From IMG/VR virus record IMGVR_UViG_3300035204_002571, positions 1 through 64,000 of that record: DNA of 64,000 nucleotides. The stretch is one strand, 5' to 3'. Position 1 is the first letter of the stretch. Each line of letters starts with the position of its first letter. This document shows positions 6,846 through 64,000 of this stretch, piece by piece. The translations under genes and the position numbers were made by a program. This DNA is from a virus. Below the pieces are notes generated by a model. The model did no database searches, was not told where the DNA came from, and saw only the letters and a list, made by a program, of their open reading frames with translations.

Positions 6846-6847
6846 TA

Positions 6848-9800: not shown

Positions 9801-10441
9801 TTGATTATGATTTAAATATATCCGGCACAGGAGCGAATACTATAATAAAAAGAAGCGGAGATATGCTTATCGGCGGTGATGGGGTTGATTTCTGGCTATA
9901 CAATGTATTCATCATTGGTGACTTCGAAGATATAACAGATTCCGCTACATACACCTCTTCTGATGATATAATTTATGGAGTAACAATAAAAGATTTAACG
10001 TACAAGCAGGATGACGCATTTAGTGGCCAGGGCTGTGTATTTTTAATAACACAAGAATTAGATGCTGCAACATCGCCAGTTACATTTAGATTTTTAAATA
10101 TAAATTTTATAGGAGACGGAACACCTGCAGATCCAGCAGACTTCCAGGCCAATTCTGACAGTGACCCATGGGAGGTAGCCATAAGATCAGGCATAGGGAC
10201 CGGAACATTTGGAAATCTAATAATAAATGGATGTCACTTTAATTCTATGGGATTCGGAGATGGTCCGGTATATTTGGACGGAAGTTCTGATTTTTATAAT
10301 GTAATTATTACAAACAACATAGCCTTGAACGTTACCAGCGTGTCAGGCTCTTACGGTATAATATCAGACGTCTCTATATCAAGCATTCCTTCCTTAGTAG
10401 GATATGTGGAATCAAGCAATATATCAGATGATCAATATTAG
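6848..10441 (+). CDS. Paralogous fibre protein without S74 domain
   Basis: A 1197-residue protein clearly paralogous to its upstream neighbour. The first about 130 residues are nearly superimposable (KSNYPDKLDTS, INPQGA.GNTV, NVLSGPITD.DVSK), and similarity continues through the beta-rich middle (for example ADLCVIEG/DLLIISG with DDGTY) to the GHFTDIKTAVDYARMFSK motif opening the beta-helix. It stops soon after that region: the two YGHDG repeats and the S74 chaperone of the first copy are missing. The next gene follows directly, so the short form looks established rather than recently broken. Probably a second fibre sharing an attachment site with the first. Gap to the upstream gene is 2 nt. 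Confidence 0.8.
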   Translation: MPKSNYPDKLDTSVEIPVIRDNITEIGSDVLNSLRSAIFNIERSLGINPQGATGNTVAARLSNALDENGNILKEALDRSNVLSGPITDSDVSKVAAVDESKLRLNYPTQLLQDQISILDNKIELFIKTLEELNAIVSAHVHPDATNRHYAQAITAVAADVEESSVATTALDDGNLQEVLEEIYNAHINYTGEGIESENNSHKALQLYYNNEDTSDLISSSSVQGAIDELASMEGKSIRDANLNFNSNGIIRTGSAYDGFENEEVGSLLVESSTITYNSPDGSSKSFISFASGTTPLAEVKPFDILTILDSPNEDDNKEYTISKVVLTTDDNIDYVELFGGPAYELTPGTTAEITKSIYTNYNENGFNCSVRPRYLKSNTPDIQVALPNAATIISSGIKPNNLLDGSVDTIALEIDGGDSVEITLYNSNYEIQTIDTIVDAVNEYVVANKLNIFAYKIRSLRCFELAITHVLPNFSEDLKNRTIKLVEASSNDASEVLGMSYLLDREVEGSVGNAYHINGRLYEDFGQITKYTSESLSINSGTTTLGAISAEFIIEGIRAGDLCVIEGSSDPDDDGTYRIHSLTDELITLDSAGSSLSGELSEESAVFIIRCTAPVGEMEFEEIDGLIMFDVFVNENKDIHYSRKMNMVGNLQVDEFYAVVSDASSGFLLDGEDYTLAIDTSGMATLIQNPGGATGEGVFVGATGTYKIMTSDGMAFVVLDVYTTEVPTANIECNLLGLSEVNRTVLHLCRGVYSTKLGFVLGDLTPGSGGGVPKLIDKRITGTTDDTIISEPFLERYIQGPRNELRGSGVIRAASVDSVEDNGDGTCTVTVNAGVVVVNGVRFEYLGAYDLLYRYGEDAADLNNFYIALDGFGCLAVGAEVDPAGGTDYISPFADQVVANLGYVEPTGVAAESLSITDLRLFVDHLDYKVIADITVANDQRFGHFTDIKTAVDYARMFSKMFPDMGIPSIFIKEGTYEVSETIKIDYDLNISGTGANTIIKRSGDMLIGGDGVDFWLYNVFIIGDFEDITDSATYTSSDDIIYGVTIKDLTYKQDDAFSGQGCVFLITQELDAATSPVTFRFLNINFIGDGTPADPADFQANSDSDPWEVAIRSGIGTGTFGNLIINGCHFNSMGFGDGPVYLDGSSDFYNVIITNNIALNVTSVSGSYGIISDVSISSIPSLVGYVESSNISDDQY

Positions 10442-50700: not shown

Positions 50701-51666
50701 GAAATTGTTGGGATACAGCTTATGGAAAATACGCAAGAGTTTTCAGAGTTCTTTTCGCAAGATGAAGTGGATCATGTTTTGTTTGATGATATTTATAGAA
50801 GCGAAATAACCGGCAGACTAACAGGGGGCACTGGCGTTAAAAAGGATTTCTCAATAGGCAGCCGACTTAGTGCTGATGGAAGAAGGGTTTTTCTGGCAGA
50901 AGCTCTTCCGGGAGCGAATGTAGATGTTATAGTTTCATATGCATCTATTGATTCTTCTGGAGACAGGGTATCTGTTTATAAAAACAAGAATAGCCAAATT
51001 GTTTTTTCAATTACTGCAAATGGCGCGGTTAATTCGTTAGTGAAAGATGTTGACTGGGGTAGGAATACTTGGCACAGGATTATGTGTACATATAAAACAA
51101 ATTCTAGCGCTGATACTATGAGGTTGTTTGTCGATGGCGATGAAAGTGGGTTTGTAACATACGGTGAGAATGGGGTTGTATATGGATCCGGGTTTGTATA
51201 TGGCCAAACCACGCAGGAACTCGGAGCATCAAAGCAGGTTGGTTACAATATATCTTTAAAAGATGACTTCAGATTGGTTTGCATTGGATCTGATGTTTTT
51301 GAAAAACAATCAGCATTGTCTAGAATAGATAATATAAGATTTAGTAGAATAATGAGAAACGCGGCAAAAGGGCCGTCTGGAGAATATATAGATACAAATT
51401 ACTCGTCTAATACAGATACTGTGCTTCCTGTGGTTAAAGATAATTCTACAACTATAATTTTAGATTTTGAAGAGGAGAGTTATGAAGATAAATATGCAAC
51501 AGTTATTGATCCGGCAAGTGGGATATTCAACTTTGACATAGAAGTATTAGATAATTTTAGTAATATTAATAGTGATGAAGTTGAAGATTTGATTGTAGAC
51601 TTGGTTAATAGATTAAAGCCGGCGCACACAAATGCATTAGTAAAATTTCCAAGAGAATCATGTTAA
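41719..51666 (+). CDS. Giant baseplate/fibre protein with LamG-like domains
   Basis: A 3315-residue protein after the wedge J gene, the slot of gp7 or tail-fibre connector proteins. The N-terminus (NHNPIRDRMVSKVPKLYNLE, then AEELFQAQKHIGELLSDNY) is helical and attachment-like. Around 1180-1245, GALRDALKKNFGILTKIPFF leads into repeated jelly-roll segments: LDEGTISAWICPEWAG (about 1275), DFKPGELHHVAASWRLN with MHLFIDG (about 2265), and NEGTIEFWVSPLMDT with WGRNTWHRIMCTYKTN and MRLFVDG (about 2945-3145). These match the strand signature of LamG/concanavalin-like carbohydrate-binding domains. Near 2173 there is a tandem DGYL repeat. Likely a host-receptor-binding baseplate arm; binding target unknown. 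Confidence 0.75.
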   Translation: MLRPVSFSIPSSTELRVKFNDEPNELLSKDNFLVESVSGNIDDLEVTKVAIDGRAVIVTTRPQVVGNFYVLKLLDSDEVLFTSAKGTPLVNDDVSRELFFIGLKNHNPIRDRMVSKVPKLYNLENSNVNKIIEAQAEELFQAQKHIGELLSDNYISVDVVDEQRTRSSGATDRLINENAYLVKRVSEKLTNASLTFDTINYTEDSGIDGHFSIPNYPISLQEVYEEDEEISLSSENNSFKGFLISLTNKNVIKLTNLKLIKSTDEEDCNEETGTEYNISLYKYSINNNRYDPTYAFSNIDLESNQVLLSEFGNIDEPTVGDTIMVSYLYKDVGRKVNEASIEIYNLQEVESESVPTNITRFFLDNAPIVDSNNDVPERGGVTFRTGENLSDVPDEFQRELVFNASKLPSKLGEYAIDYSTGEVIVVGAEEIGDGTGANNNIASYLYRNVFSKNLDYYIKDDEFVASSNRSIVNEEVSIDFNYDKVYVEGVDYRAPCHTEVFNEYVENNFESSFVIKPKNTPITNVFRIFNQTTGEVYPLLYHTRDEVVFSGVRSPEFRTEISELADFNLVELEKLSPIGEFVCPAFSVTISANASNSNIQFYPGIPAELIDYNSQDYFIRSTGLDGSDDLEDLQIRFFGEPDSDNLIQSVAISSTATAPSLKEVVTIGTKGLVFSLDNSYIINNSRDAIGSHVNTSAEFSRYDLFLVEKYFNELSSNPGTERVGDDSLASSILSSKGDDFYENLSRLRRVGDYCIDYKHGQVYLAMSYDQDYELGSVNYRHGAITTFNRNIIGVTEATKKLISSDSLEDSTIIYDKVSNTSEEASILDLENTILLPDGETMALNSDGELDDICIILDDYTVVLPNKASDVNGIYTLSSLEGDNLSSSVREIREEDLGSDLINELVKNGGGNLYDSTFMTFEDNVIDLKKTYSTRVAESGDDYTIIINDSEFGEIYKIIHTSSGAEIFDEKLNVIKLDDLEVVYAEQDEDEVIIDIKSGPILDSLDVNGDFLLDSRGSRFRIVDFDPETSQVVVLTPAENNVEAELPELGGAQVIVKASVTSSDTGVVIVIPSDSYINDRDPIDVIYTTSNTPSAGTKVGVDLRSGRLYLNYLYSYDDVYVSYEYGDNEIDWSIGSSILEGQSYHVTYKYGALRDALKKNFGILTKIPFFQRFSINTDRELYRSALEGTMQAFTKGPTIPAFEALVESFTDISPEITESVFGNWILGRDFLSPEELKADGTLEFKTCKFGEGVMINNDTAIYMPAVSNINLDEGTISAWICPEWAGVDNDATLTIDIDNIGTKNYIYRIGSNPFDYDNHFNILASEHAVGGSDYSSPSITLHNFTSSWKDGVEGGEEEEFIGAFALTKEEPSIDRSVKTELDLSLKVSSFSAPEAINPPRRRPSEDLPFNRANLGILGLGKSLSDASRGLIVAGSEEDLYRFCSPAFVSIGDKEKLLFMMFSLRPLFNPESGRIYTFRVGYEHIEANEIPDYNRLHVTQNCVCSVDDTLEELSKFRDKDFQSIKVDLDFNIDFGYIKDVDVPFDNVPSSFRILDTRGAVYEVYAFLDEDDNVILDEIPNTVSGFIVNRIPENQQYITAQGAEAINDLLPTGEITVLYQTMSVLTNVDPDAKKYIGYEGKSYIVDWMSDFVNFNILRDPMNNNVEITVKSSVDSSKKNIKLFYTDLIDVEMEEAIYEGLNFDKWFNIVGDVTSVNNSSSLSNKIAVGTLDRTTKSVIDIGRLKYSVHNRFSEEDVYIGASARNPLRIPFDVNKYDFPDTSVGLPYNADSDEGLFICFDELCLSPLAEDAGQWVFRSRAGNSIYAPTSVYPTEDGHEFGYSYVPLSHVFSGTINTDGEFSSVVRAHRDEDGTGCPTGLVCSSEYRYCGDGLLEGTEKGSGWRRINETSSELINILIGGSQGESSAWMKFGHFNTSAIGGVYRAGPSEPHADNCNHDVTDPAGGNHLYTKLPCYGGDYSATVSFKVSEVDHKIVNSSAGRFQGATSGVMTGITPIHIYDDSISIKVSLAISNSGQPLILVIDGFSEEIIDISYFNWDDGFFNVLSLIKDMENETITITSEGQILSKLNINDFEEGDTEACGKDLRDKSPFFAIHLFDASLLNIVDFHNKYSGNIIDIGLIEYSARLEDGVNAFEDEDIFISTDSKIEFEFNVVAAEDGYLDGYLDGYFEGYGYSSDQEFDVDEVYFTSDKLRYVFDSGEGGSENRISIFKDGKGFMNFRIYDNSLSARGDVNMYNIATNIKDFKPGELHHVAASWRLNTIYEKDEMHLFIDGLEAPNIYKFGGPVLVRINDKFSDISKEVLQDFLVDGIDFCNTFSDGTTLAGSSTFSSNQAGFTSDMVGRSVIFLESSIAPTYVGKEYIINSVDGNSVTFVRGSDLDIVSFDTSASDIIFMLPPTAGIKMPIATDLRNSEFAIFKTNCEGEEEELGGVLYTVEDGSINVLNGENVINPQYRANIDTKIVEFIGKDDECNFTGTIDFSDLDIHIKTFGLIYANCNDIINLSSSSYYVLDKKEYDVNSGKSVILSHAAEPVSLEDVTIKRIVLPRVIPSFEDISEEWDYPFAKIEFEMPLESNDGSTLLSCQPGQVYKKNAGRYLTLNFDSDNVVFCGELDGYVDGYEEADAYPNIIKIVGETVDGTNYEEFTVTGNGDIHGKKLFKSVQEVKGRLYLADSDYEPCVISISETNSITVSNNDGEYAEVFKYTNGSLVLTSVGSNGVYPFELHPGSYHLSYPAFLKIAIPNVGDKAYIGCDMNSQNQFGGTIDEFRVITEMSSDTRPTESDTNGTRSITEDYLNPNPHCADDQTLVLAHFDDPIDLQARKLRQKEFLNTESNFKFKLDLEDRETLLSYINNKDLFVSKMIRMGYERDAAIETYIECHHAMGGPLFNEAKFVRSDEMLVSSSSVNDEFGLSAKFFNTPPLVMNNRLSYFRRNEGTIEFWVSPLMDTVGDEEDRYYVDIYSITRKRVKSFSPTIIDLPSSAREIVGIQLMENTQEFSEFFSQDEVDHVLFDDIYRSEITGRLTGGTGVKKDFSIGSRLSADGRRVFLAEALPGANVDVIVSYASIDSSGDRVSVYKNKNSQIVFSITANGAVNSLVKDVDWGRNTWHRIMCTYKTNSSADTMRLFVDGDESGFVTYGENGVVYGSGFVYGQTTQELGASKQVGYNISLKDDFRLVCIGSDVFEKQSALSRIDNIRFSRIMRNAAKGPSGEYIDTNYSSNTDTVLPVVKDNSTTIILDFEEESYEDKYATVIDPASGIFNFDIEVLDNFSNINSDEVEDLIVDLVNRLKPAHTNALVKFPRESC
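48235..48270 (+). repeat. Three tandem 12-nt repeats (DGYL codons)
   Basis: GATGGATATTTA occurs twice exactly (48235-48246, 48247-48258) and a third time as GATGGATATTTT (48259-48270). In frame it encodes DGYL-DGYL-DGYF. Related DGY pairs occur at 49594-49617 and 54745-54774. Confidence 0.9.
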
Positions 51667-51723: not shown

Positions 51724-54700
51724 ATGGCAAAGGCTAATAGAGAAAAGCTTTCGAGAGTAAACTTTTTTGACGGCCAAAGAGTAACGGAGGCAGATTTAGA
51801 TGATGAGCAAATTCATCATCGTGGTCTAGTCTCTAGTTTAACTAAGGACTTTCATGGAAGCGGTATTGTAAGAGACCGTCTTTTTGAAAGCTATGTTTTA
51901 TTGGATACTGGCGATCCTGGAGCCTATTTAGGCGATAATGAAGAAAATGAATCAGAATTTGTAATCAACTCAGGGACTTATGATGGTAGGGCGATTTTTT
52001 TGGATCGTCAGCCGAGCGATACTGTATATGGAAACAGACTTGAGATTGAGGCTTCAGGGCTTGATGTCGGAGGAAGGCTCACCACAAAGGTTCTGATTAT
52101 TGGGGCTGCTTTTAGCAGCCTGAGTGATACTGGGGAACTTGTATCTGAAGTTATAGAATTTAATGAAAATGTTACAAAGGTTACAGAAAATTATTATACA
52201 CGAGTTGTAGCTGTATTTTTTAATAACTTTTCCGGAGGAACGGGCAGGACCGAGAATAGTTTAAGCGAACAAAGCTTGAATCTATTGACAGATGATGGAA
52301 AAATTGTAATAAGAGAAGCTGAACCATTTAAGGTTTTCGCAAGAACTCAGACCTCTTTTCAGACCAGCTCTCCCAGTATAGAGCTTGCCAACTTTATAAC
52401 ATCTAGCGAAGAATTATCTATAGAGGACGAGATAAAAGAAGGCCTTGGCTCTGTATATAACTTTAATGATCTATATTTTGAATTAGAGGCCCAAGAGGAA
52501 GTAACTTTCAGTGTCGATGGGGACCAGACCACTTCTTATGGACAAAAGTTTTTAGCAAAAGCAGACAATATTCAAAAAATTGATCTTTTATTTTCAGTCG
52601 AAAGAGATGAAGATGCACATTCTGGAGAGGAATATTTCTTCTCCGGAGATATCGTTATATCGATACATAAGTTATCAACAGATATACAATGTGTAACAGA
52701 TCCTCATCCAGATAATTTAATAGACTTTGATCCAGAGCCCTCTCCTATTATGGAGATGTCATACTCCCAAGAGGACCTTGAAGCTCTAGGATATAAGCTG
52801 GATGACACGCCTAAGGTTGTTAGCTTTGATTTCTCTGGAACGTTAATTGCAGATCCGGGGATAGAGCCTTCGCTTGAGGTTGGCGAATATTACGCAGTTC
52901 TAATTAGTCGCCGTGGTGACAATAGAACTGGAACCATTGTTATGCAAAAGGGATACGATAAAGCCTCAAGAAAAATTGGCAATGGCCAAACGCTAAATGT
53001 AATTGAAAGCTTTGGCAAGCAAACAACAAGGTTTATAGAATTTGATCCAAATAATTTGGTATACGTTGATGACATGGATTCATCGTTATGGTTTGTTGTT
53101 CATTCTGATACAGTTGAAGTTACAGACGGAATAGCGTACACCGATGACGGCTTCTTGGTCGTATTGCCAAAAACAGAAGAATATGTTGGCAGCACAGAGA
53201 TCTCTTCCTTTATGAGGGATGTGGCGCTTGCCGATGTATCTGAGGGAACAGACAATTTAGTTGTTCTTCAGCGGCAAGATAACTTTGAAACGCCAGGAAT
53301 ACACCCTAGAACTGGAAACTTTGTAAACACAAGAGTGCAAGACTCACCATCTATTTCGGTTATGTCAACCGATGAGTGGGAGAGTGTAGATGCAGATTAT
53401 CCCCCTATTTTACTTGCAAGGGTTCAGGATAATAATGTAAGAGAAGCTCAAGATATAACGGGAACATTTGATCTGCCTGGATTGGTAGCAAGCAGTGAGA
53501 TCATATTTGTAGACCCTGATTCGGATATGATTAATGAAAACCTGATAAACAGGGTAATAACTCCGGATTTGGATTGCGAGTGTAATGCCAGATATAGAAT
53601 CGTAGGAGTAACATGTGAAAAAGCATATGCTGGAGATCTAAATGGCGATGAGGAAATAACAACTAGTGATATAGTTGATTTGTTAAATGTTGTCGGGAAT
53701 ACTATAAATACAGAAACGACAGAAAGAAGAATTCTCGGCGGTGAGCTAGACCTTGTAGACTTTATAAAGTCAGACCTAAACGAAGACGGGACAGTCGACG
53801 GTTTTGACATAGAGCTAATAGAAGACGCCGTAGATGGATATACCAATTTTACTGTCGAAGAGTCCTTTAATGTATTAACCTTAAAGTTAGAAAATATATT
53901 GGAAGAAGATGATTACCCAGTCTTGTTTGAGGATACGTCATCATCTGGAACTACAGAGAGCCAGGAAGACATTGTTAATTTTGTAACTGATGAGGAAAAT
54001 CAGGCATTAGCAATCAGAATAGGGGATCAGGTCGTTATACCATCAGATTCGTCTGATGCCGGTGTGTACCTGGTTTATTCCAAAACTGTAGACGAAACAG
54101 GTGTAGGAGTCACCCTTTCTGTTACAGATACAGATGGAGAAGAGGTAAGTTTTTCAGGGTCCAGCGCAGGGTTTGATGTTATAATTACAAGCGGAACAAG
54201 GGTCAATCTTTTTGCAGATAACTTAAAGCTTTTGAACGTCCCGTTTGAAGAGAAGAATTGGGCAATATCGTATATTGGAGCACCACATCAGAGTGAGTTT
54301 GTTGATGTATGCGACTTAAGAAGATATGTAGAAACAAACTTTATAGAAGAGTTTGAAGAAGTATGCGTTTGCGATGAAGACCCGTGTATAGAGACTGGCG
54401 ATTGTACTCCTCAGTATAAAAATCAAAAAGTCTTAGCAGATGATTTGTTTATTCCAAGCGGAGAAATTTACAAAGAGCCTGGAGTTCCTTATCATGGCGA
54501 TATAGAGTATTCTACAATAACTATTCCCCTGCCTCCTGGCACTATTGATGACTGCGAAATTGATTTATATACAAACTTTATAAAAGCAGGTTCGGGAAAG
54601 TGCAAAACAGAGTCTGGCTATCCTGCTATGAAGTATTCGGACGGCACGTATGTCGGATGTGAAGATTCAGGGGCAGAAACAGATATAACAAAAGGAAAGG

Positions 54701-56286
54701 TAAAGATAACTCAGTGTATTGCAAGTCTTTATGTAGATGCTTTTGTAGATGGGTATGCTGTAGATGGGTATGCTGATGAAGAAGACGTATCAACATCCGC
54801 AGAAGTTATTGCCGAAAACTTTACAGATCATACTTATCCAAATACGTCTGGATTTTCCGAATGGGCTCCATCTCCCCCTCTTAGCTACCTGGTGGCCTCT
54901 GCCGCCTCGGGATCGAATGAGCCAGTATTTTTTGATTTAGAAACGATTAATGCCGGAGAGAGATACGCAAGAATAAGCCAGCCTTCTGCTTCGGATAACA
55001 TCTCTGGAGATTTTGTTATAGACATAAGAATGTCAAGAACGATTTGGGATGAGAATGAATTAAAGTTTGGAAAAGTTGGATTTTTTACATCATTGGTTAT
55101 AACGAATGATGATGGGACGGAGTCGACTCTCAAGCTTGGGTGGAGACAAACTGCGTATCAAAATGTAGAATTATTTTATAGCGGAGAGATCGTTGACACA
55201 ACGGCTGGAACCGTTGTAAGTGATTTTGATTTCTCCGTAGAAGCGGGAGATGACTTAGGAGACGAAATAAGGTTTAGGCTAAGAAGGGTCAATGAGGCTG
55301 TTTTTGCCATGTATTTTGACGATACTCTTTTGGATTTTTCCGAAAACTTTACTGGCCAACTTGTAAGAATAGGTACAGCACCAGATGTGCAGCCTGGAGC
55401 CGGAGATGCTAGAGCGCATGTTGAAATGGCGCAATATGATAACCCAAATGTTGGAGTTATATACGCAACAACTCTTCATGATATGGTGATTAGATATGAT
55501 TACTCTTCGGTATCTTCAGCAGAAGAGGAATCGGTTGTGCTGAGCAGGGATTCAGACGGCTTAATTGACAGAACTACGGTGACATTCCCAATGCTATTAA
55601 CGCAAAGGACAAATATTGTATCAGCAACATTAAGCATGACTGTTGCCGATGAGGTCGATGCGGCTTCCGCAGTAGAAAGCTTTAATATTATACCTTATGA
55701 TATATTAAATGCAGATAATCTTGGAACCTTGATTGATTATCCGTTAGAAGAAAATGACTCATTCATAGTTACGTTTGAGCCTGGAGAGGCTGTGACCGGT
55801 TCAACAATAGACGTTGACGTAACCTCTCTCGCAATATATTATCTATCACAATCAGGGCATCTGCCAGGATTTTATAAGGCATTAATTATAGAGCCAAGCG
55901 CTACAGCTGAGGCTAGTTTAACAATTTTGCCCAGCATAACCTTGACAGTAGAATATGAAGATATAACCACAGGGGTTGTATTCAAGGTTGGTACAAACTT
56001 GGATCCTAGCACTGGGATAGTATCCTTGCAAACAAAGAATATTTTGTATGATTCATTAAATGAGGCAAATAGAACGGTTTTGAAATTTGGAGTTCATCTT
56101 AAAAAATCAGGATTTATGAATGATGACGTAATTATAGGCATTAAAGATCTTGCAAGAATAGGCATAGGTACATGTATTGATGAAACAGATTTCGAAGAAG
56201 ACGAGCTTTGTTTCTTTATCGCAGGCAGCACTGCAACCGGAACCTTTGTCGAAGGTCCGTTCCCCTGCTATTTCCATCTACCATAA
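51724..56286 (+). CDS. Large baseplate structural protein with dockerin-like domain
   Basis: A 1520-residue protein. The start is ATG 51724 with AGGAG 7 nt upstream; an in-frame ATG at 51685 has no such site. The N-terminus NREKLSRVNFFDGQRVTEADLDDEQ resembles conserved starts of baseplate or fibre proteins in large phages. Residues 638-649 and 684-695 are D-x-N-x-D-x6-D type loops (DLNGDEEITTSD, DLNEDGTVDGFD), each followed by a helix, matching the duplicated calcium-binding loops of dockerin type I. Later parts are beta-rich (TLKLGWRQTAYQNVELFY, VVLSRDSDGLIDRTTVTFPMLL). Cys pairs occur near 905 (VCVCDEDPC). Last structural gene before the glycosyltransferases. Confidence 0.75.
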   Translation: MAKANREKLSRVNFFDGQRVTEADLDDEQIHHRGLVSSLTKDFHGSGIVRDRLFESYVLLDTGDPGAYLGDNEENESEFVINSGTYDGRAIFLDRQPSDTVYGNRLEIEASGLDVGGRLTTKVLIIGAAFSSLSDTGELVSEVIEFNENVTKVTENYYTRVVAVFFNNFSGGTGRTENSLSEQSLNLLTDDGKIVIREAEPFKVFARTQTSFQTSSPSIELANFITSSEELSIEDEIKEGLGSVYNFNDLYFELEAQEEVTFSVDGDQTTSYGQKFLAKADNIQKIDLLFSVERDEDAHSGEEYFFSGDIVISIHKLSTDIQCVTDPHPDNLIDFDPEPSPIMEMSYSQEDLEALGYKLDDTPKVVSFDFSGTLIADPGIEPSLEVGEYYAVLISRRGDNRTGTIVMQKGYDKASRKIGNGQTLNVIESFGKQTTRFIEFDPNNLVYVDDMDSSLWFVVHSDTVEVTDGIAYTDDGFLVVLPKTEEYVGSTEISSFMRDVALADVSEGTDNLVVLQRQDNFETPGIHPRTGNFVNTRVQDSPSISVMSTDEWESVDADYPPILLARVQDNNVREAQDITGTFDLPGLVASSEIIFVDPDSDMINENLINRVITPDLDCECNARYRIVGVTCEKAYAGDLNGDEEITTSDIVDLLNVVGNTINTETTERRILGGELDLVDFIKSDLNEDGTVDGFDIELIEDAVDGYTNFTVEESFNVLTLKLENILEEDDYPVLFEDTSSSGTTESQEDIVNFVTDEENQALAIRIGDQVVIPSDSSDAGVYLVYSKTVDETGVGVTLSVTDTDGEEVSFSGSSAGFDVIITSGTRVNLFADNLKLLNVPFEEKNWAISYIGAPHQSEFVDVCDLRRYVETNFIEEFEEVCVCDEDPCIETGDCTPQYKNQKVLADDLFIPSGEIYKEPGVPYHGDIEYSTITIPLPPGTIDDCEIDLYTNFIKAGSGKCKTESGYPAMKYSDGTYVGCEDSGAETDITKGKVKITQCIASLYVDAFVDGYAVDGYADEEDVSTSAEVIAENFTDHTYPNTSGFSEWAPSPPLSYLVASAASGSNEPVFFDLETINAGERYARISQPSASDNISGDFVIDIRMSRTIWDENELKFGKVGFFTSLVITNDDGTESTLKLGWRQTAYQNVELFYSGEIVDTTAGTVVSDFDFSVEAGDDLGDEIRFRLRRVNEAVFAMYFDDTLLDFSENFTGQLVRIGTAPDVQPGAGDARAHVEMAQYDNPNVGVIYATTLHDMVIRYDYSSVSSAEEESVVLSRDSDGLIDRTTVTFPMLLTQRTNIVSATLSMTVADEVDAASAVESFNIIPYDILNADNLGTLIDYPLEENDSFIVTFEPGEAVTGSTIDVDVTSLAIYYLSQSGHLPGFYKALIIEPSATAEASLTILPSITLTVEYEDITTGVVFKVGTNLDPSTGIVSLQTKNILYDSLNEANRTVLKFGVHLKKSGFMNDDVIIGIKDLARIGIGTCIDETDFEEDELCFFIAGSTATGTFVEGPFPCYFHLP
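54745..54774 (+). repeat. Exact tandem 15-nt repeat (VDGYA codons)
   Basis: GTAGATGGGTATGCT occurs twice in a row, encoding VDGYA-VDGYA inside the dockerin-containing protein. Confidence 0.9.
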
Positions 56287-56309
56287 TTTCTAAAAAAATA
56301 GGCATGTTT

Positions 56310-56318
56310 TGGTATAAT
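56310..56318 (+). promoter_or_regulatory. Candidate extended -10 promoter TGGTATAAT
   Basis: Perfect TATAAT with a TGn extension in the 40-nt gap before the first glycosyltransferase gene, 8 nt before its ATG. Any transcript from it would be nearly leaderless. It matches the pattern of the elements at 16167, 20105 and 27858. No terminator seen upstream. Confidence 0.5.
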
Positions 56319-56326
56319 TATATACC

Positions 56327-57412
56327 ATGAGTGCATTAAAAATTAGATCGCAGGCGATGCTTGGCACAACTCATAGTTGGGCCGTTACCATAAGAAGTCT
56401 TCTTAGAGAGTTCCGAGCAATGGGGCATGGCCTATATTTGAATAGTATAAATGGTTATGATTTATATCCAAAGCAGTGGAATAAATTTAAGAGGGAATGT
56501 GGAGATGCAGATATAGACTTAACCTACACATTGCCAAGAAACTTTCCGCATAGATTTAACAGAAATTCCAAATTAAAATTAGCAATATATAATTATGAAA
56601 CTAGTATTTTGCCTCAAGTTTGGTCTGATAAAATAAAGCATATAGATTATGCCTTGCCATCAAGCAGATTTTCAAAAGAAGTTTTTGTTAACTCGGGCTG
56701 GCCAGAGGAAAAGTGCATCGTAATTCCTCATGGCGTTAACTTAAAAGACTTTCAGGATAAATCCAAAGTAAATAATCTTAAGACAAGAAAGAAATTTAAA
56801 TTTTTAAACGTTTCTATTCCTCATTATAGAAAAAATATAGATGTTTTGGTCGATGCATATTATAGCGCATTTACAGACAGTGATGATGTTTGTCTTTTGT
56901 TAAAAGTTAAGCTTGAAAAGCCAAAATATAAGTTTGAATGCGATGTAATTAAGCAGATTCTAAAGGCTCAAAAAAAGCACAAGGGGAAAAGGCTGCCGCA
57001 AGTAGAGGTTGTGCAGCATAAGTATGATAGTATGGTTCCCTTATATAATACGTGTCATAGTCTAGTTAGCGCATCTTCCGCAGAAGGCTTCGGATTACCC
57101 TTGCTGGAGGCTTTGGCAGCAGGGATGGTGGTTATAGCGCCGAACTGCACAGGTCAGCTTGATTTTTTAAATAGAAGAAATTCCTTATTAGTTGATGTTA
57201 AGGAGATAAAGGCAACAGCTAAGTATCAGTACTGGAGGCCCTCTCCTGGTGCGAAAACTTTTCTTCCAGAGGTTGAATCGTTAGCAGAAAATATGAAAAA
57301 TACTTATGAAAATCATAAAAAATTAAAGAAAAAATTTAAAACAGAAGCTAAAAAAACAGTAGAAAAATTTACTTGGGAAAATGCTGCAAAACAAATATTG
57401 GATATTTCATGA
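56327..57412 (+). CDS. GT4-like glycosyltransferase 1
   Basis: A 361-residue GT-B enzyme predicted to move a sugar from a nucleotide donor. The C-terminal domain has SSAEGFGLPLLEALAAG, with the E-x7-E motif of GT4 retaining transferases that holds the donor, followed by VVIAPNCTGQLDFL. IPHGVNLKDF near residue 140 and FLNVSIPHYRKNIDVLVDAY are the usual linker motifs. First of seven consecutive glycosyltransferase genes and the only one with a gap and candidate promoter upstream. Ends in an ATGA overlap with the next. Acceptor unknown. Confidence 0.88.
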   Translation: MSALKIRSQAMLGTTHSWAVTIRSLLREFRAMGHGLYLNSINGYDLYPKQWNKFKRECGDADIDLTYTLPRNFPHRFNRNSKLKLAIYNYETSILPQVWSDKIKHIDYALPSSRFSKEVFVNSGWPEEKCIVIPHGVNLKDFQDKSKVNNLKTRKKFKFLNVSIPHYRKNIDVLVDAYYSAFTDSDDVCLLLKVKLEKPKYKFECDVIKQILKAQKKHKGKRLPQVEVVQHKYDSMVPLYNTCHSLVSASSAEGFGLPLLEALAAGMVVIAPNCTGQLDFLNRRNSLLVDVKEIKATAKYQYWRPSPGAKTFLPEVESLAENMKNTYENHKKLKKKFKTEAKKTVEKFTWENAAKQILDIS

Positions 57413-58929
57413 ATATATTAGATTCTTATAAAAAGAATAATTGGAAAACAAAGGGCGTAATGTTTTCTGATAAAAATATTATAATGAACTCAAAGTCTAA
57501 ATTATCCTCAGAATTATCTAATTTTAACTCTGTATCTATAAAGATAATTGGCAAAAAGATATCCGGAAATGGTCATCTAATTTTATCTATAAAAAATAAA
57601 AAGAATGAAATATTATTTTCTAAAAATGTAAATTTTACGAAAACATCTTGGTCGGAGCATTCTTTTAAATTTAAAAATAAAGTTGAAAATGGAGTATTAG
57701 AGCTGTCAAGGGGCAAGACATCTTTCGGCAGAGTAGAGATAGGCAGAATCGTTTTAGATGATAATAGGCCAAAGGTTATGCCGAAGAAGAGAAGAGGCAA
57801 TGATAGCCATTTTGATAATTATTTAAATCTTTTAAGTCAATTTTCTTTAAAGAAGAAGGTTGCCGTAATTATTCCTTATGGAATATACGGAGGTGGAGAG
57901 GTATATTTGAAGAATATTTTTGCAAATACTAAAGATATTTTTAATATTGATTTTTTATATTTGTCAAAAAATACACTTAAGTTTGAAATGTCAAATACAA
58001 ACATAAAACATAAAGACATTGGAAATTTAAATCGTCTATCTGCAACACTAGTCAACAATAGGTACGATACAGTTATTTTTTATAATAGCGCAAGAGTTTA
58101 TAATGTAGTCTCAAAGCTGAAGGTGGAAGATAAAATAAATTCAAACATCATTGAAATATATCATAGTGATTTTCTTTGGCAGGATGCAGTCGCCAAGCTG
58201 AGAGAAAGGGTGGGTGTTGACTTTATATTTAGAGTTAGTCAAAATTTAGCTGTTGATATCTTGGGCGTACCAGATGAAAGAAAGATGTTTGTTCCGGTAG
58301 GGATTGATACTAAGCTTTTTATAAGAAAAGAAAATACAGAATTGAGAAGCAAGCTGGGGATTGATAAAAATAAAACTATATTTGGAATGGTGGCCAGATT
58401 GTCTCCTGAGAAAAATATAGAATATGCATTAAGGTTGGTTAAGGGATCAAGAGACATACATTTGCTAATTATAGGCTCAGGGCCATTATCCGGAGCGTTG
58501 CAAAGACTTGTTAAGGAAGATAAGATAGATAATGTATCATTTTTGGGATATAAAAATAATGTTCAAGAATTTTATAATATTTTTGATGCATTTTTATTAA
58601 CCTCAAAAATAGAGGGAACCCCAATATCAATTCTTGAAGCGATGTCATGCTCTTTGCCTATTTACTCAACAGATGCAGGGCAGATAAAGAATGATTTCGG
58701 TCATCTAGATAATTTTCATATATTGAGTGGCTCCCCAGATGATGACAAAGAGTTCATAAAAAGACAAATAAATATGCCTAATTACTGTCAAAACCTAAGA
58801 GAGTATATAGTTGAAAATCATAATATTGATATAGTCTCAAATAAGTTTTTTACAAATATTTTAAATGGTTCATTAAACTTTATAGAAAAAGATAAAGATA
58901 CAGTTATAGTTTCTGGAGAATATATATAA
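57409..58929 (+). CDS. GT4-like glycosyltransferase 2 with N-terminal beta domain
   Basis: A 506-residue protein starting at the ATG that overlaps the preceding stop (ATGA); the alternative in-frame ATG at 57373 lies deep inside the upstream gene. Residues 1-125 form a beta-rich, jelly-roll-like region (HLILSIKNKKNEILFSKNV, FGRVEIGRIVLDD) unlike a normal GT. The GT-B part follows from about 145: VAVIIPYGIYGGGEVYLKN, VPVGIDTKLF, IFGMVARLSPEKNIEYALR, LLIIGSGPL, then KIEGTPISILEAMSC with E-x7-E. Extremely A/T- and Lys-rich compared with the structural genes. The extra domain may bind the acceptor or glycan. Confidence 0.88.
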   Translation: MNILDSYKKNNWKTKGVMFSDKNIIMNSKSKLSSELSNFNSVSIKIIGKKISGNGHLILSIKNKKNEILFSKNVNFTKTSWSEHSFKFKNKVENGVLELSRGKTSFGRVEIGRIVLDDNRPKVMPKKRRGNDSHFDNYLNLLSQFSLKKKVAVIIPYGIYGGGEVYLKNIFANTKDIFNIDFLYLSKNTLKFEMSNTNIKHKDIGNLNRLSATLVNNRYDTVIFYNSARVYNVVSKLKVEDKINSNIIEIYHSDFLWQDAVAKLRERVGVDFIFRVSQNLAVDILGVPDERKMFVPVGIDTKLFIRKENTELRSKLGIDKNKTIFGMVARLSPEKNIEYALRLVKGSRDIHLLIIGSGPLSGALQRLVKEDKIDNVSFLGYKNNVQEFYNIFDAFLLTSKIEGTPISILEAMSCSLPIYSTDAGQIKNDFGHLDNFHILSGSPDDDKEFIKRQINMPNYCQNLREYIVENHNIDIVSNKFFTNILNGSLNFIEKDKDTVIVSGEYI

Positions 58930-60050
58930 TGAGTAATGACTTTCCATCTATAAGATTTTTTGGACGGCCCCATGGGAAGGGAGGATATGGAAATGCCACG
59001 AGAAATATTTGCCTGGCCTTTTCCAGATCCGCTGTAAATACGAGGTTTGAACTAAAGGGTGACAAAAAATTTGTTGATAAAAACTTAAATAATTTTGATG
59101 GAACGCCAAAGGTTGACCTCTATCTTCATACTCCTCCGTTTTCAAGGCATAGATCAAATAATTATAAAATTGGATATTTTTATTGGGAGACAAGTATATT
59201 GCCGAAAAGTTGGGCAAAAGATATTTGCAAGAATGTTAATGAACTCTGGGTGCCTTGCAACTTGACAAAGACGGCGTGTTTAAGAAGCGGCTTTAGTGGC
59301 CCTATAGAGATTCTTCATACACCATGTGATACTGATGTTTCTTTTTCCAATGTAGCGATACCATCTCCTATGACGGAAGAATTGATCTTGTCCGATAATA
59401 CTTTTAAATTTTATTCTATTTTCCAATGGGGAGAGAGAAAGGGTTATACAGAGCTTTTAAAGTCTTACTATAAAGAATTTGATGGTGATGATAATGTTAT
59501 TTTGATATTAAAAGTAAACCCAATAAGAAGTGATAAGAATAATATTGCAAAAATTAAATCAGATATTTTAAAGATTAAAAAGATGGTAAACAAAAAGAAT
59601 TCTCCAAAAATATATCTGATTACAGACCATCTGAACAAACAGGCTCTTATGGGCCTTCACAGGGCTTGTGACGCCTTTGTGCTCCCTCATCATGGCGAGG
59701 GCTGGGGGATGCCTATACATGACGCTATGATGTGTGACAGTCACATTATAACTACATCATTTGGCGGCATAACAGAATTTTTAAATAATGACAATGCATT
59801 TGTAATAGATCACACTCTTGGGGCTGTAAAGCCGGTTAGCTGGAGTCCATGGTATCAGCCGTATCAGAAGTGGGCATACCCAAAGGTTCAGCACCTCAGA
59901 GTGCTTATGAGGAATCTTTATGAAAACAAAGATAAGTACTCAAGCAAACTAGAGAGCGCAAGGGTTTTGGCAGCATCTTTGGATATAAAATCTTGCTCCG
60001 AAAGAATTGAGCAAATATTATTACAAAAAAGATTTAAAAGGTTTTTATAA
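58929..60050 (+). CDS. Glycosyltransferase 3 (GT-B, E-x7-D)
   Basis: A 373-residue GT-B enzyme, TAATG-coupled to its neighbours on both sides. Contains RPHGKGGYGNATRNICLAFS near the start (Gly-rich acceptor-side loop), YYWETSILPKSW, FYSIFQWGERKGYTELL, and HHGEGWGMPIHDAMMCDSH, where the second acidic residue of the E-x7-E motif is Asp. The YWETS and ILP.SW sequences also resemble glycosyltransferase 1 (NYETSILPQVW), so the two may be paralogues. Product and acceptor unknown. Confidence 0.85.
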   Translation: MSNDFPSIRFFGRPHGKGGYGNATRNICLAFSRSAVNTRFELKGDKKFVDKNLNNFDGTPKVDLYLHTPPFSRHRSNNYKIGYFYWETSILPKSWAKDICKNVNELWVPCNLTKTACLRSGFSGPIEILHTPCDTDVSFSNVAIPSPMTEELILSDNTFKFYSIFQWGERKGYTELLKSYYKEFDGDDNVILILKVNPIRSDKNNIAKIKSDILKIKKMVNKKNSPKIYLITDHLNKQALMGLHRACDAFVLPHHGEGWGMPIHDAMMCDSHIITTSFGGITEFLNNDNAFVIDHTLGAVKPVSWSPWYQPYQKWAYPKVQHLRVLMRNLYENKDKYSSKLESARVLAASLDIKSCSERIEQILLQKRFKRFL

Positions 60051-60982
60051 TGGCGAAAATATTAAAAATAGCAGACTGGCTGGTTCATGGCGGCCATCAA
60101 TATGAGTTTTTTAAAACTAATCATGTATTTTTCTGTACAAAGCCAAGCGGCTTCGCCCCAACTCCGCAAGATTTGGGTAGACCAAGAAATAAGAATGTAA
60201 ATTATGTTACAGAAGCTAGGTTATCAAATGAGGCTTATGACATACTCATGGTAAGAACTGGCGTTAATCCTCATAAGTATAAAACACTTAGGTATAAAAG
60301 AGGAAATACCCCAGGGATTGCCGTTGTTCAGACGCACACTCCATCGTCATCTGTGCCGAAATGGGTAAGGTGTATGGTTTGGAATTCTAAAGATACAATG
60401 GTCAAATATATGCAAAAATTCCCGGGTAAAAAACATTTCTATATTCCACATGGATTTGATCCAAATGAGTTTGCAGATTTAAATGTAGAAAGAAACAATA
60501 GGGTTCTCAGCGCGGTAAGTGTTTTTGAAAAAAGAGGGAGCCTTTTGGGGTTTAATGAGTGGAGGTGGGTATCTAATAGGATTGGGAAGTGCGATTTGCT
60601 GGGTCACGGCAATGAAGATCTTAAAGAATCTATAGGATCATTTTCTTTGACCAAATTGGTTAGAAAATATAATAAATATGGTGTTTTTTTAAATACAACA
60701 ACAAAAAGCGCCATGCCAAGAACTAGAGCTGAGGCTTTAATGTGCGGAACGCCATTAGTCACAACGAATAATTTTGGTATAAACAAGTATTTGACTCATG
60801 GCAAAAACTGCCTTTTTGCCAACACCAAAGAGGATATGCTTAAGTGTGTAAAAAAGGTCTTGGCATCAAAGAGCTTGCAGGAAGACTTGGGGGCTGCAGG
60901 TAGGGAGGCGGCAATTAAACATTTTCATATTAATTTGTATATTAAAAGATGGAATGAAGTATTCAAAGAGGCTCTTAGATGA
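60050..60982 (+). CDS. Glycosyltransferase 4 (GT-B, divergent)
   Basis: A 310-residue protein with a GT-B-like C-terminal half: YIPHGFDPNEF, SAVSVFEKRGSLLG, LLGHGN, TTKSAMPRTRAEALMCGTPLVTTNNFGINKYL, and a closing helix HFHINLYIKRWNEVF. Only the second acidic residue of the E-x7-E site is clear; the first is replaced within SAMPRTRAE. The N-terminal half (GGHQYEFFKTNHVFF) is compact. It overlaps the previous stop (TAATG) and the next start (ATGA). A glycosyltransferase by fold; donor unknown. Confidence 0.8.
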   Translation: MAKILKIADWLVHGGHQYEFFKTNHVFFCTKPSGFAPTPQDLGRPRNKNVNYVTEARLSNEAYDILMVRTGVNPHKYKTLRYKRGNTPGIAVVQTHTPSSSVPKWVRCMVWNSKDTMVKYMQKFPGKKHFYIPHGFDPNEFADLNVERNNRVLSAVSVFEKRGSLLGFNEWRWVSNRIGKCDLLGHGNEDLKESIGSFSLTKLVRKYNKYGVFLNTTTKSAMPRTRAEALMCGTPLVTTNNFGINKYLTHGKNCLFANTKEDMLKCVKKVLASKSLQEDLGAAGREAAIKHFHINLYIKRWNEVFKEALR

Positions 60983-61845
60983 AAAAGGTGCTTGCTATAA
61001 CAGACTCCTATAATTGGGCCACTTATTTTAGAGCAAAAAATTTAAAGGAGAATTTAAAAAAATATAATTTTCGAATTATATCATTTCATGATATAAAAAA
61101 AGTAAATTTTAATGATTTTGACATTGTTTATGTTCTTAATTGGCCTATTTATGGCTATATAAGACATAAGATATCAAAAAATAGAAAATATAGACTTGTA
61201 ACGGGCATATCTAGTCATATTGGCAGGAAAAATGCAAAAGAAATGAAAACATTTTTTTCTATTTTTGATTCAATTGGGGTTTCAAACAAGTTTTTGTTTA
61301 AAGAGTTTAAAAACGCAAATATAAAAAATATTGTCTATACTCCGTTTGGCGTAAATCATAATATTTTCAAAAAAACAACAAATCCAAATGATTATAAGTT
61401 TATATTTGGTTGGGTCGGAAACGATAAGAGGCCGGTTAAGAGATATGGCGAAATATGCAAAGTTTTTAAGCAATTAGGGCCAAAATATAAACTATTAACA
61501 GTCACTCAAGGGTCAGGGTTTTCGAGAGAAAAGATGGCGAAGTTTTACAATTCTATTAGCGCTATAATTTGTTATAGCGAATCAGAGGGGACTCCAAATC
61601 CTGTTTTAGAGGCGGCTATGTGTGGCAGGCCTGTTATCTCCACGCTTGTTGGAAATGTGCCTGAGCTCATGGAGGGTGTTAAAGGCTTTCGTCCTGTTAA
61701 TTCTTATAAATCATTGCTGTCTGCTGTAGAGAGGTATGGGGATAGAGTTGATTTGAATAATATTGGATCACGAGTCGGCGCGGCAGCCCAAGACGACTGG
61801 ACCTGGAAGATCAAGTCTAAAAACTTTGTAAGGCTTTTGGGATAA
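60979..61845 (+). CDS. GT4-like glycosyltransferase 5
   Basis: A 288-residue, short GT-B enzyme. YTPFGVNHNIFKK, FGWVGNDKRPVKRY, LLTVTQGSGF and SEGTPNPVLEAAMCGRPVISTLVGNVPELMEG give an intact E-x7-E donor motif and following Gly-rich loop. The N-terminal domain begins KVLAITDSYNWATYFRAKNL, the usual first strand and loop. Starts in an ATGA overlap; 2 nt separate it from the next gene. Confidence 0.87.
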   Translation: MKKVLAITDSYNWATYFRAKNLKENLKKYNFRIISFHDIKKVNFNDFDIVYVLNWPIYGYIRHKISKNRKYRLVTGISSHIGRKNAKEMKTFFSIFDSIGVSNKFLFKEFKNANIKNIVYTPFGVNHNIFKKTTNPNDYKFIFGWVGNDKRPVKRYGEICKVFKQLGPKYKLLTVTQGSGFSREKMAKFYNSISAIICYSESEGTPNPVLEAAMCGRPVISTLVGNVPELMEGVKGFRPVNSYKSLLSAVERYGDRVDLNNIGSRVGAAAQDDWTWKIKSKNFVRLLG

Positions 61846-61847
61846 GT

Positions 61848-62933
61848 ATGAAGATTTTAATAGCATGTACCCAATACCCTTATCATGGTGGAGCTGCAAC
61901 AAATTCATACGCCCTTGTGAAGGGTTTGAGAAAAAGAAAACATAGAGTATGTGGTCTATTTTTTGAAGATAGTCGGGCCAATTGTGATCCAGACAATATT
62001 GGAAAGATTATAAAATCAAGCTCTAAAATTGGAAGCTATAACCAATTGCGTAAAAAAATAATAAGAATGCTAGGCGGAAGTCCAGATATTATATTGGCTA
62101 AAAATTATGTTGCACCTATATATTGCAGAAAGTTATTTCCGAATTCAAAAATAATTTATTTAGTATCTGGGGCTCCTATTATGATGCCTTTGTCTAAGGA
62201 TAATATATCTGCGATTAGATATCTATCTATGGATAATTCAAAAATAAGGAAAAAGTATAGTAAAAACCTTCTTTCTCTAGAGAAGGGGGCTATAAGGGCT
62301 TGTGATGCAGTTATCTTGAATAGCGGAATATCTAGAAAAGTTTTTTTAAAAACAAATGCTAAAAGCTTGCAAAATAGAAAAGTTTTTAAACCTTTAAATA
62401 CCTCTATAGTTATAAACAGAAGAGGGAGGGGTACGAAGGCTAAAGATTTTAATAAGCGAGAGGTAGATATAGCCTTTATTTGTTCTAATTTTTCCAGAAC
62501 AGTTAAGAACGCAGGATTTGCCAAGAAGCTTCTTCTTAACAAAAGGCTTGCCGGAAAAACCAAGCTTGTAGTTGGGCAAAACAGTAAAATGTTTGCAAAT
62601 GTTCCAAATATTATAACTAAAGGTAAAGTGGGCAATAGTACAATTTTTAGTTACTTGAATAAAACAAAGCTAGTCATTTGTACGTCTTATTTTGATGCCT
62701 CGCCAAACATAATTAATGAAGCGCGAGCATCAGGCTGCAATGTTCTTGTGTCTAGAAACTGCGGCTGGCACAGAAGGTATGGAGCCAAAAGCGTGTGCAA
62801 AGATGTATATGGATTAAATGAGTGGATTAATAAAATTTTGTCATCATGCAAAGGGGAGATTGAATATCCAATCATACAGTCAGATAAAGATATTCTTATA
62901 GCATTGGAAAGCATGATCAAGGAGCTGCTATGA
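61848..62933 (+). CDS. Glycosyltransferase 6 (GT-B, atypical donor site)
   Basis: A 361-residue protein. The N-terminus MKILIACTQYPYHGGAATNSYALVKGLRKRKHRVCGLFFE is a textbook GT-B first strand with a GGA(A)T.S loop. The C-terminal region has YFDASPNIINEARASGCNVLVS: the first Glu of E-x7-E is Asp and the spacing keeps a Glu in the second place. The middle is highly basic (INRRGRGTKAKDFNKRE). The sequence IAFICSNFSRTVKNAGFAKKLL resembles the second-domain start. A glycosyltransferase, but divergent from its neighbours. ATGA overlap with a tiny downstream ORF. Confidence 0.78.
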   Translation: MKILIACTQYPYHGGAATNSYALVKGLRKRKHRVCGLFFEDSRANCDPDNIGKIIKSSSKIGSYNQLRKKIIRMLGGSPDIILAKNYVAPIYCRKLFPNSKIIYLVSGAPIMMPLSKDNISAIRYLSMDNSKIRKKYSKNLLSLEKGAIRACDAVILNSGISRKVFLKTNAKSLQNRKVFKPLNTSIVINRRGRGTKAKDFNKREVDIAFICSNFSRTVKNAGFAKKLLLNKRLAGKTKLVVGQNSKMFANVPNIITKGKVGNSTIFSYLNKTKLVICTSYFDASPNIINEARASGCNVLVSRNCGWHRRYGAKSVCKDVYGLNEWINKILSSCKGEIEYPIIQSDKDILIALESMIKELL

Positions 62934-62995
62934 GTATAATTATAGGATGGCTGACCGGGCAAGCGGGTTTGAAAATTATGCCTGAAAGGTTGTGA
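62930..62995 (+). CDS. Possible 21-residue micro-ORF
   Basis: An ATG overlapping the previous stop (ATGA) opens a 21-codon frame (MSIIIGWLTGQAGLKIMPERL) ending at TGA 62993-62995, 6 nt before the next gene. It contains the likely AAGG site for that gene. It could be a coupling peptide, a remnant of a shortened glycosyltransferase (the start resembles a GT-B first strand), or chance. Confidence 0.25.
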   Translation: MSIIIGWLTGQAGLKIMPERL

Positions 62996-63001
62996 GAAAC
63001 T

Positions 63002-64000
63002 ATGTTTGGTACTAAATTTTGGTATAAAAAGAAAAAAATATTATTTGTAGTAGATGTTCAAGGATGGGCATATGACGATAGAGCAAAAACATGGAAATCT
63101 TTGCTTAAAGATGAGTTTGAAATTGATATACTTAGATTGTCAGAGTTTCCAGTTGGAAGTTATAGTTCAGAGTTTTCAATTATAAATAGAAAAATTATAA
63201 ATGCTGCCAATGAAGGGGTGCCCTTAAATTGTTCAAGAATTGTTACAGATCCTAGTTCTGTTAATTATTCTTTTTCAGATTTAGGTAAAATAAAAAAATT
63301 AAAACCAGTATTTGATCATAAAAAATATGATGGGATTGTTTTTTTCTATCATAAGGCGATTGCAGACAGAAGGCTTTTGGCAACTCCCTTTCCAATGAAT
63401 AAGGTAGCGGTATGTATTAATAATGAAAAGTGGAAAGAAGAAGGTGCAGAGTATTTTGCAAAAACTTTTTATTCAGAAGTAAAGATTTTGGTTGGATGTA
63501 ATAAATATATAGTTGATTCTTTTTCTGGGCTTCATCCTAACGTAATGCGCGCTTCCCAATGTGTAGATAGTTCTGTCTTTTTTAAAGATAAAAATCTTAA
63601 TACTAAGCCTAAAAGGAGATTTACAGTTGGGTGGTCTGGCAACCATAGTAATCCGCTCAAAAGAGTTGAGTTAATAAAAAAGGCTTGTAACAAAGCAGGT
63701 GTAACATTATCTATAAAAAAAGATCTTAGTAGGAAGGATCTTAATGTTTGGTATAACAGTATTGATATAGTAATTTGTGCTAGTGAGTCTGAAGGAGGCC
63801 CTATGTTGTTGCTGGAGGCTGGCGCTGTTGGGGTGCCGGCCATTACAGCTAATGTGGGGCTCGCAAGAGAGATGGTGAGTCATGAAAAAAATGGTTTAAT
63901 CTTGAAAGAAGGCAGCGTCAAAAACATAAAAGAACTTATTTTAAAATTAAAAAACAAACCAGATCTCGTAAAAGCTTATGGAAGAAGAGTTCATCAAGAG
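63002..64000 (+). CDS. GT4-like glycosyltransferase 7, 3'-truncated by window end
   Basis: A reading frame of 333 codons from ATG 63002 that runs off the window. The N-terminus KKILFVVDVQGWAYDDRAKTW and the second domain with RFTVGWSGNHSNPLKR and SESEGGPMLLLEAGAVGVPAITANVGLAREM show a GT-B enzyme with intact E-x7-E donor motif. The LVGCNKYIVDSF segment in between is typical of the linker before the second domain. AAGG lies 12 nt upstream. Continues past 64000, so the cassette may hold more members. Confidence 0.85.
   Translation, partial: MFGTKFWYKKKKILFVVDVQGWAYDDRAKTWKSLLKDEFEIDILRLSEFPVGSYSSEFSIINRKIINAANEGVPLNCSRIVTDPSSVNYSFSDLGKIKKLKPVFDHKKYDGIVFFYHKAIADRRLLATPFPMNKVAVCINNEKWKEEGAEYFAKTFYSEVKILVGCNKYIVDSFSGLHPNVMRASQCVDSSVFFKDKNLNTKPKRRFTVGWSGNHSNPLKRVELIKKACNKAGVTLSIKKDLSRKDLNVWYNSIDIVICASESEGGPMLLLEAGAVGVPAITANVGLAREMVSHEKNGLILKEGSVKNIKELILKLKNKPDLVKAYGRRVHQE

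Follow-up and report, generated by a model that had tools for sequence, protein, structure and literature searches.

What does a phage do with a long run of glycosyltransferase (GT) genes placed directly behind its baseplate genes? The question is raised by the end of a 64,000-base stretch of viral DNA (the window), which comprises the first 64,000 bases of the 81,920-base IMG/VR record IMGVR_UViG_3300035204_002571; the 17.9 kb beyond the window were also read, and coordinates above 64000 belong to the same record with the window numbering carried on. The first-pass annotation had described seven tandem GT-B genes that follow the last baseplate gene and continue past the window, and had guessed that they assemble an oligosaccharide on the virion. 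Seven consecutive plus-strand open reading frames (ORFs) are present, the first starting at 56327, 40 bases past the last baseplate gene, and the last crossing the window end. The sequence evidence set out below indicates that the operon probably directs glycan assembly on the virion, mainly on the baseplate and adhesin proteins encoded upstream, and tentatively points to the tyrosine of an Asp-Gly-Tyr (DGY) motif as the glycan attachment site. The seven genes are:

56327 to 57412, plus strand: GT1, GT4-type GT-B enzyme (PF13692 E 7e-11, PF00534 E 8e-11)
57409 to 58929, plus strand: GT2, core by synteny (PF00534 E 1.5e-27)
58929 to 60050, plus strand: GT3, core by synteny (PF00534 E 5e-9)
60050 to 60982, plus strand: GT4, core by synteny (PF13524 E 1.5e-12)
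60979 to 61845, plus strand: GT5, first gene of the variable segment, with homologues in some relatives (PF13692 E 5e-10)
61848 to 62933, plus strand: GT6, variable (weak family match PF13439 E 3e-4, below cut-off)
63002 to 64000, ending at 64066 of the record, plus strand: GT7, variable (PF00534 E 1e-18)

Six of the seven (GT1-GT5 and GT7) pass the Pfam cut-off for Glycos_transf_1, Glyco_trans_1_4 or Glyco_trans_1_2 and have the Glycos_transf_1-type C-terminal domain of GT-B, GT4-like enzymes, while GT6 stays below threshold. Coupling by ATGA and TAATG overlaps, claimed for the whole series, holds at four of the six junctions (ATGA, TAATG, TAATG, ATGA) and fails at GT5-GT6 and GT6-GT7, which are separated by gaps of 2 and 68 bases. 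The set is as diverse in sequence as had been stated, the closest internal pairs being GT1/GT3 (26%) and GT5/GT7 (30%). About 8 bases upstream of the start of GT1 there is a TATAAT-like box (GGTATAATTATATACCATG, window 56287-56326), and comparable boxes stand close before GT1 in G002, G001, G004, G006 and L016, which suggests a leaderless transcript start; a sigma-70 scan upstream of GT1 gave nothing above chance.

An indication of what the enzymes act on comes from their neighbours, namely the baseplate genes that precede them:

37947: gp25, baseplate gene
38387: Baseplate_J/gp6, baseplate gene
41719 to 51666, plus strand: BPbig, 3,315-amino-acid (aa) LamG baseplate/adhesin-like protein, candidate glycan acceptor (PF13385 Laminin_G_3, E 6e-12 near the C terminus)
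51724 to 56286, plus strand: BPdock, conserved baseplate-associated protein of 1,520 aa with a predicted C-terminal ConA-like lectin fold, candidate glycan acceptor

Near relatives were gathered by a GT3 search, which gave 26 loci, many of them on contigs of 130-395 kb. According to the gene tables, 14 independent huge-phage records, our own included and each of three pairs of near-identical duplicates counted once, share one order, BPbig-BPdock-GT1-GT2-GT3-GT4. One additional ORF lies between GT3 and GT4 in G009 and G004, two additional ORFs stand ahead of GT2 in G005, where GT1 is truncated, and L090 has no recognisable GT2 or GT4. BPbig stands upstream of BPdock in all relatives, and BPdock is followed by GT1 in every relative with enough downstream sequence except the fragment L102, down to about 28-32% identity. 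The GT core constantly adjoins the baseplate genes, its members being linked to virion genes. The seven GTs do not form a conserved unit, since the core consists of GT1-GT4 and GT5-GT7 fall in a variable part. Indeed, gene content after GT4 changes almost completely among relatives: only six of our about 24 post-GT4 genes (GT5, GT6, GT7, two unassigned proteins and a DegT fragment) have a homologue of at least 35% identity in any of nine relatives. In most records the variable segment ends with a UDP-glucose dehydrogenase, usually together with an epimerase.

The two large proteins upstream had been described as containing LamG and dockerin domains. The LamG assignment stands for BPbig, whereas BPdock (1,520-1,533 aa, depending on whether it starts at 51724 or 51685) matches no Pfam family, dockerin included, at E<=0.01; EF-hand-like stretches ('DLNGDEE...DLNEDGTVDG') are visible in it by eye. 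In an AlphaFold2 (AF2) model of its residues 880-1260, the Foldseek matches are lectin and ConA-like folds. A tblastn search of 50,697 deposited phages with BPdock gave no match.

Both proteins carry a tandem DGY motif:

48235 to 48267, plus strand: loop 1 of BPbig, DGYLDGYLDGY (pattern match; loop aligned in 25 sequences)
49594 to 49614, plus strand: loop 2 of BPbig, DGYVDGY (pattern match)
54748 to 54771, plus strand: BPdock, DGYAVDGY, in a low-confidence linker (pLDDT <50) before the lectin-like domain

In BPdock, D1009 G1010 Y1011 and D1014 G1015 Y1016 are invariant in nine homologues, while the BPbig loops vary in length and flanks and retain the tyrosine. In particular, Tyr follows D[GA] in 123 of 128 cases within the BPbig loops as against 27 of 773 elsewhere in the same proteins; Phe, Trp, His and Ser never occupy this position (0/128) and Thr does so once. 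The lack of Phe, Trp and Ser in 128 cases suggests that the tyrosine phenol matters. In 780 ORFs from near relatives, only BPbig and BPdock have tandem [DEN]GY (37 observed, 0.3 expected after shuffling), and at the level of whole near records the tandem DNA pattern is found in 18 of 26, the reversed pattern in none. Single DGY motifs in BPbig and BPdock of the near group total 88 against 12.7 expected, and the other near-lineage protein classes have observed-to-expected ratios of 0.6-1.1. Elsewhere, the tandem motif appears in a tail-fibre-like protein of G012 and G016, and the distant, GT3-bearing G022 and G023 have a DGYFSDGY linker. A control set of ten phages (including T4, G, phiKZ and P-SSM2; five with gp6 homologues) contained no tandem DGY (0/10), 0-4 DGY per size class in four structural regions examined, and no full-length close GT1 (0/10), Annadreamy giving 28% generic GT4-type matches. 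The DGY regions are modelled with low confidence (mean pLDDT 61-62), and because of this they are not claimed to be disordered loops. Literature searches, which covered few subscription-only papers, returned nothing relevant on a DGY motif or on phage tyrosine glycosylation.

Could the loops simply be Tyr/Gly-rich receptor-binding or linker motifs that stay unmodified, with the GTs acting elsewhere, on another virion protein or on the host? This is quite possible, and it opposes the attachment-site proposal rather than virion glycosylation as such. The loops lie in or beside lectin-like domains of the baseplate protein, and similar linkers recur in fibre-like proteins of G034, as such a role would have it; the near-exclusive use of Tyr (Thr once in 128) suggests instead that the phenol matters, and the motif occupies varied protein contexts of the lineage while missing from the control phages. 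Sulfation of the tyrosines by cassette sulfotransferases would be another use of the phenol. Three sulfotransferase-like genes are present in our cassette and more in relatives, and the acidic residues near Tyr resemble sulfation sites, but the sulfotransferases fall in the variable part and some relatives have none that was recognised, in contrast to the constant DGY and GT1, and sulfating the glycan would be the simpler role for these enzymes. Tyrosine sulfation in place of glycosylation is, on balance, improbable.

The link between DGY and GT1 extends to distant relatives. A scan of IMG/VR for triple DGY, blind to GTs, used only ORFs of at least 500 aa because low-complexity GYGDGYG ORFs match and make the scan noisy; besides low-complexity ORFs it returned at least 14 ORFs of that length, and each of these 14 encodes a virion protein of the lineage; some, among the matches listed, are only 28-32% identical to our own proteins. 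At three of these loci (L110, L132 and L158) a GT1 homologue lies beside or near BPdock, followed by other enzymes (GT2-family, GT6-family, epimerase). GT1 is present in eight of nine distant records, the exception being a 39-kb fragment, and in the more distant phages it is the only GT retained beside the baseplate gene. In a second set of records, tandem DGY occurs in 11 of 15 and the reversed pattern in at most one. In G029, G031, G034 and G035, no other tripeptide is as enriched as DGY (213 against 14.1 expected; z 53, next-best z 8), which sits in fibre-like, sheath and baseplate proteins, whereas gp6, gp25 and the tape-measure-like homologue s20 of G035 have none. Two giant fibre-like proteins of G034 (L246 and L247, about 64.9-74.7 kb and 83.6-99.5 kb; 3,245 and 5,319 aa) hold 26 and 38 DGY motifs against about 2 expected each.

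Where would the sugars come from? Nucleotide-sugar genes had been noted as absent, which is correct inside the window and incorrect for the locus, and the accompanying suggestion was that donors would come from the host or from downstream genes. Donor-sugar genes do lie downstream, at 68.2-81.9 kb, among about 23 more plus-strand glycan genes that fill the remaining 17.9 kb to 81919 of the record.

64063 to 65190, plus strand: no-family protein, probably a transferase, by position only
65187 to 66137, plus strand: no-family protein with homologues in relatives, probably a transferase, by position only
66145 to 66777, plus strand: GT29a, sialyltransferase family (PF00777 76 bits, cut-off 23)
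66851, plus strand: methyltransferase
67552 to 68166, plus strand: GT29b, sialyltransferase family (PF00777 90 bits, cut-off 23)
68245, plus strand: HAD-like and DHDPS/NanA-like protein (HAD part read from sequence)
69438, plus strand: KdsA
70216 (sub-threshold) and 70665, plus strand: sulfotransferase-like
71333, plus strand: CMP-sugar synthetase
72072, plus strand: WbqC
72779, plus strand: GH130/GH43-like
73734, plus strand: GNAT-like (read from sequence)
74146, plus strand: methyltransferase
74880, plus strand: no assigned function
75809, plus strand: N-terminal half of DegT
76477, plus strand: sulfotransferase
77148, plus strand: RmlA
77822, plus strand: RmlB
78807, plus strand: GSCFA
79880, plus strand: no assigned function
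80636, plus strand: UDP-glucose dehydrogenase
cut by the record end, plus strand: GalE-like epimerase

KdsA, the CMP-sugar synthetase, RmlA/RmlB and UDP-glucose dehydrogenase are typical of lipopolysaccharide (LPS) and capsule loci, and this raises the alternative that the host LPS, capsule or S-layer glycan is altered during infection, blocking superinfection or the re-adsorption of progeny. Such a role has been proposed for the LPS-type GTs of marine pelagimyophages (PMC7029224). The membrane genes of such pathways are missing here. All 30 cassette genes lie tightly packed on one strand, and a simple hydropathy scan predicted a membrane segment in none of the 30 proteins; in ten relatives it found one segment each in only three of about 216 genes, and no multi-pass protein. 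A membrane-bound priming transferase, flippase, polymerase or ligase was thus not seen in any of these cassettes, and therefore no lipid-linked pathway of the Wzx/Wzy type is encoded here, soluble stepwise sugar transfer being the parsimonious mode. Moreover, remodelling of the host leaves unexplained why divergent phages keep the GT core fixed to the baseplate genes and why virion proteins bear the DGY tag. We consider it unlikely.

Glycosylation of modified bases in the phage genome would also employ GTs, and it is known for single phage enzymes (cited in PMC12619734). Near the cassette, no base-modifying gene was recognised. As many as about ten diverse GTs with ulosonate, sulfo- and methyl-transfer genes beside the baseplate genes are a poor fit, and the set of GTs differs among records while the core keeps its place next to the baseplate. 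DNA hypermodification is accordingly very improbable.

An oligosaccharide on the virion is the best reading, strengthened by the conserved baseplate synteny, the lack of membrane and lipid-carrier genes, and the confinement of DGY to exposed virion proteins, with both glycan and acceptor being predicted. Several points weigh against it. The distant fragments G027, G028 and G030 lack tandem DGY and two of them carry GT1; the association of DGY with GT1 may reflect common descent because both travel in one lineage, and no BPdock homologue free of GT1 was found with which the dependence of DGY on GT1 could be tested; and a receptor-binding or linker role is conceivable for DGY. Kdo (3-deoxy-D-manno-oct-2-ulosonate), the sugar that KdsA serves to make, is a classical LPS sugar, and missing membrane genes are no proof since cytoplasmic GT-B enzymes can act on lipid-linked host intermediates. 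The locus is also incomplete, as the record stops at 81,920 inside the epimerase gene. The appearance of DGY in more than one protein and loop speaks for continuing selection.

If the virion is the target, sugar addition would be stepwise and cytoplasmic, with folded or assembling virion proteins as substrates. GT1 is proposed as the initiator because it is the sole transferase that tracks the DGY-bearing baseplate gene through the whole lineage; it would prime the glycan, perhaps on Tyr of the D-G-Y loops, and GT2-GT4 would lengthen a common stem. The variable middle supplies other transferases, donor-sugar enzymes (here for Kdo/CMP-ulosonate and dTDP-sugar) and sulfo-, methyl- and acetyl-transferase-like tailoring enzymes that may cap, sulfate and methylate the glycan, the outcome being a strain-specific coat at the host-contacting end of the particle. 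Extended to the huge-phage lineage, D-G-Y may possibly be the sequon of a lipid-independent Tyr-O-glycosylation that combines GT1 with a swappable cassette, the glycan being sometimes ulosonate-capped and sulfated.

The cap in our phage is possibly Kdo or a sialic-acid-like sugar added by the two GT29 enzymes. GT29a and GT29b both exceed the PF00777 cut-off and contain sialylmotifs, their donors and acceptors being predicted only; GT29b aligns to mammalian ST3Gal1 (2wml) across the sialylmotifs with HYWE kept. KdsA has equivalog-level similarity to Kdo-8-phosphate synthase (NF003543 247 bits, cut-off 242; TIGR01362 235 bits, below its cut-off of 314) and matches the solved enzyme PDB 1fwn at E 4e-54. 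GT29 and KdsA occur in the same records, namely four of 17 syntenic ones (G000, G008, G009 and G016), or three of 14 non-duplicate ones (Fisher p 0.003), and G009 has NeuB, a HAD-like protein and two cytidylyltransferases (CMP-sugar synthetases) beside KdsA. This co-occurrence, together with NeuB and the cytidylyltransferases, supports, without proving, the use of a CMP-ulosonate (Kdo or nonulosonate) by the GT29 enzymes. Single-sequence scans of GTDB genomes and IMG/VR with GT29b found no relative; the sole deposited phage matching it is the unannotated 484-kb metagenomic phage LR756508.1 (L229, 304812-345432), where a single unannotated glycan cluster holds four or more GT29 homologues. GT29 beside phage KdsA/NeuB would hint at sialic-acid-like or Kdo capping of virions.

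How does this compare with known systems? To our knowledge, phage virion glycosylation has few examples, mostly with one or two GTs, and we know of no multi-sugar variable cassette or DGY motif in that of mycobacteriophages. Mycobacteriophage virion proteins reportedly carry glycans (Freeman et al. 2023, as cited in PMC12619734), said to sit at capsid and tail-tube C termini, which would be a functional precedent for the present lineage. The T4-like cyanophages P-SSM2, S-SSM7 and S-SM2 similarly have big LPS-type clusters in a marine myovirus, but these lie near hli03/phoH and tRNAs, have no assigned function and are not joined to a baseplate module (PMC3037559); P-SSM2 has no tandem DGY and a marginal GT1 match. 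Pelagimyophages likewise place GTs in a hypervariable virion region, their host-recognition cluster, with UDP-glucose 6-dehydrogenase among LPS-related genes; GT8 is the dominant family there and the authors prefer an interpretation as host O-chain modification (PMC7029224), whereas here a fixed-order GT4-type core is accompanied by a Tyr tag. The moraphages (ERM huge phages), compared by description only, are large and aquatic, and their core genes include gp25, gp6, sheath and four GT orthogroups; PMC12619734 mentions virion or DNA glycosylation and, in the portion consulted, describes no cassette, sugar-nucleotide genes or DGY tag. Bacterial S-layer Tyr O-glycosylation (Paenibacillus alvei SpaA and others) offers long Tyr-linked glycans with an adaptor saccharide and a variable chain, but according to PMC2943079 the transfer to the S-layer protein is considered co-secretional, via an oligosaccharyltransferase, and no such membrane genes are present here. 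None of these systems, as far as the consulted text of those sources describes them, joins a core locked to the baseplate genes with both a variable cassette and a Tyr tag.

What is described here is a biosynthetic locus of 30 genes, part of it a constant core and part of it variable in the manner of an antigen, that is linked to the end of uncultured huge phages which contacts the host; a short sequence tag indicates where the candidate acceptor sites are. If the proposal is right, sequence alone could suffice to predict glycosylated virion proteins, and the serotype-like diversification that bacterial polysaccharide loci are known for would extend to phages.

The sole match of a BPdock profile, a 4.3-kb contig of a metagenome-assembled genome labelled Zixiibacteriota, was too weak to assign a host. 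Elsewhere in the window, a candidate tape-measure protein of 2,664 aa (27892-35886) has about five hydrophobic segments, and two adjacent long tail-fibre-like proteins at 1677-10441 share the N terminus '[A/P]KSNYPDKLDT', the relatives of the second in G012 and G016 having DGYTDGY. Among the relatives, record G002 encodes an 824-aa fusion (L036:13967-16438, minus strand) of a GT4-type GT (residues 201-339) and a tubulin/FtsZ GTPase (residues 430-594, PHROG PhuZ); the two parts are fused in four records (G002, G005, G007 and G018) and are adjacent separate genes in G009, G012 and G016.

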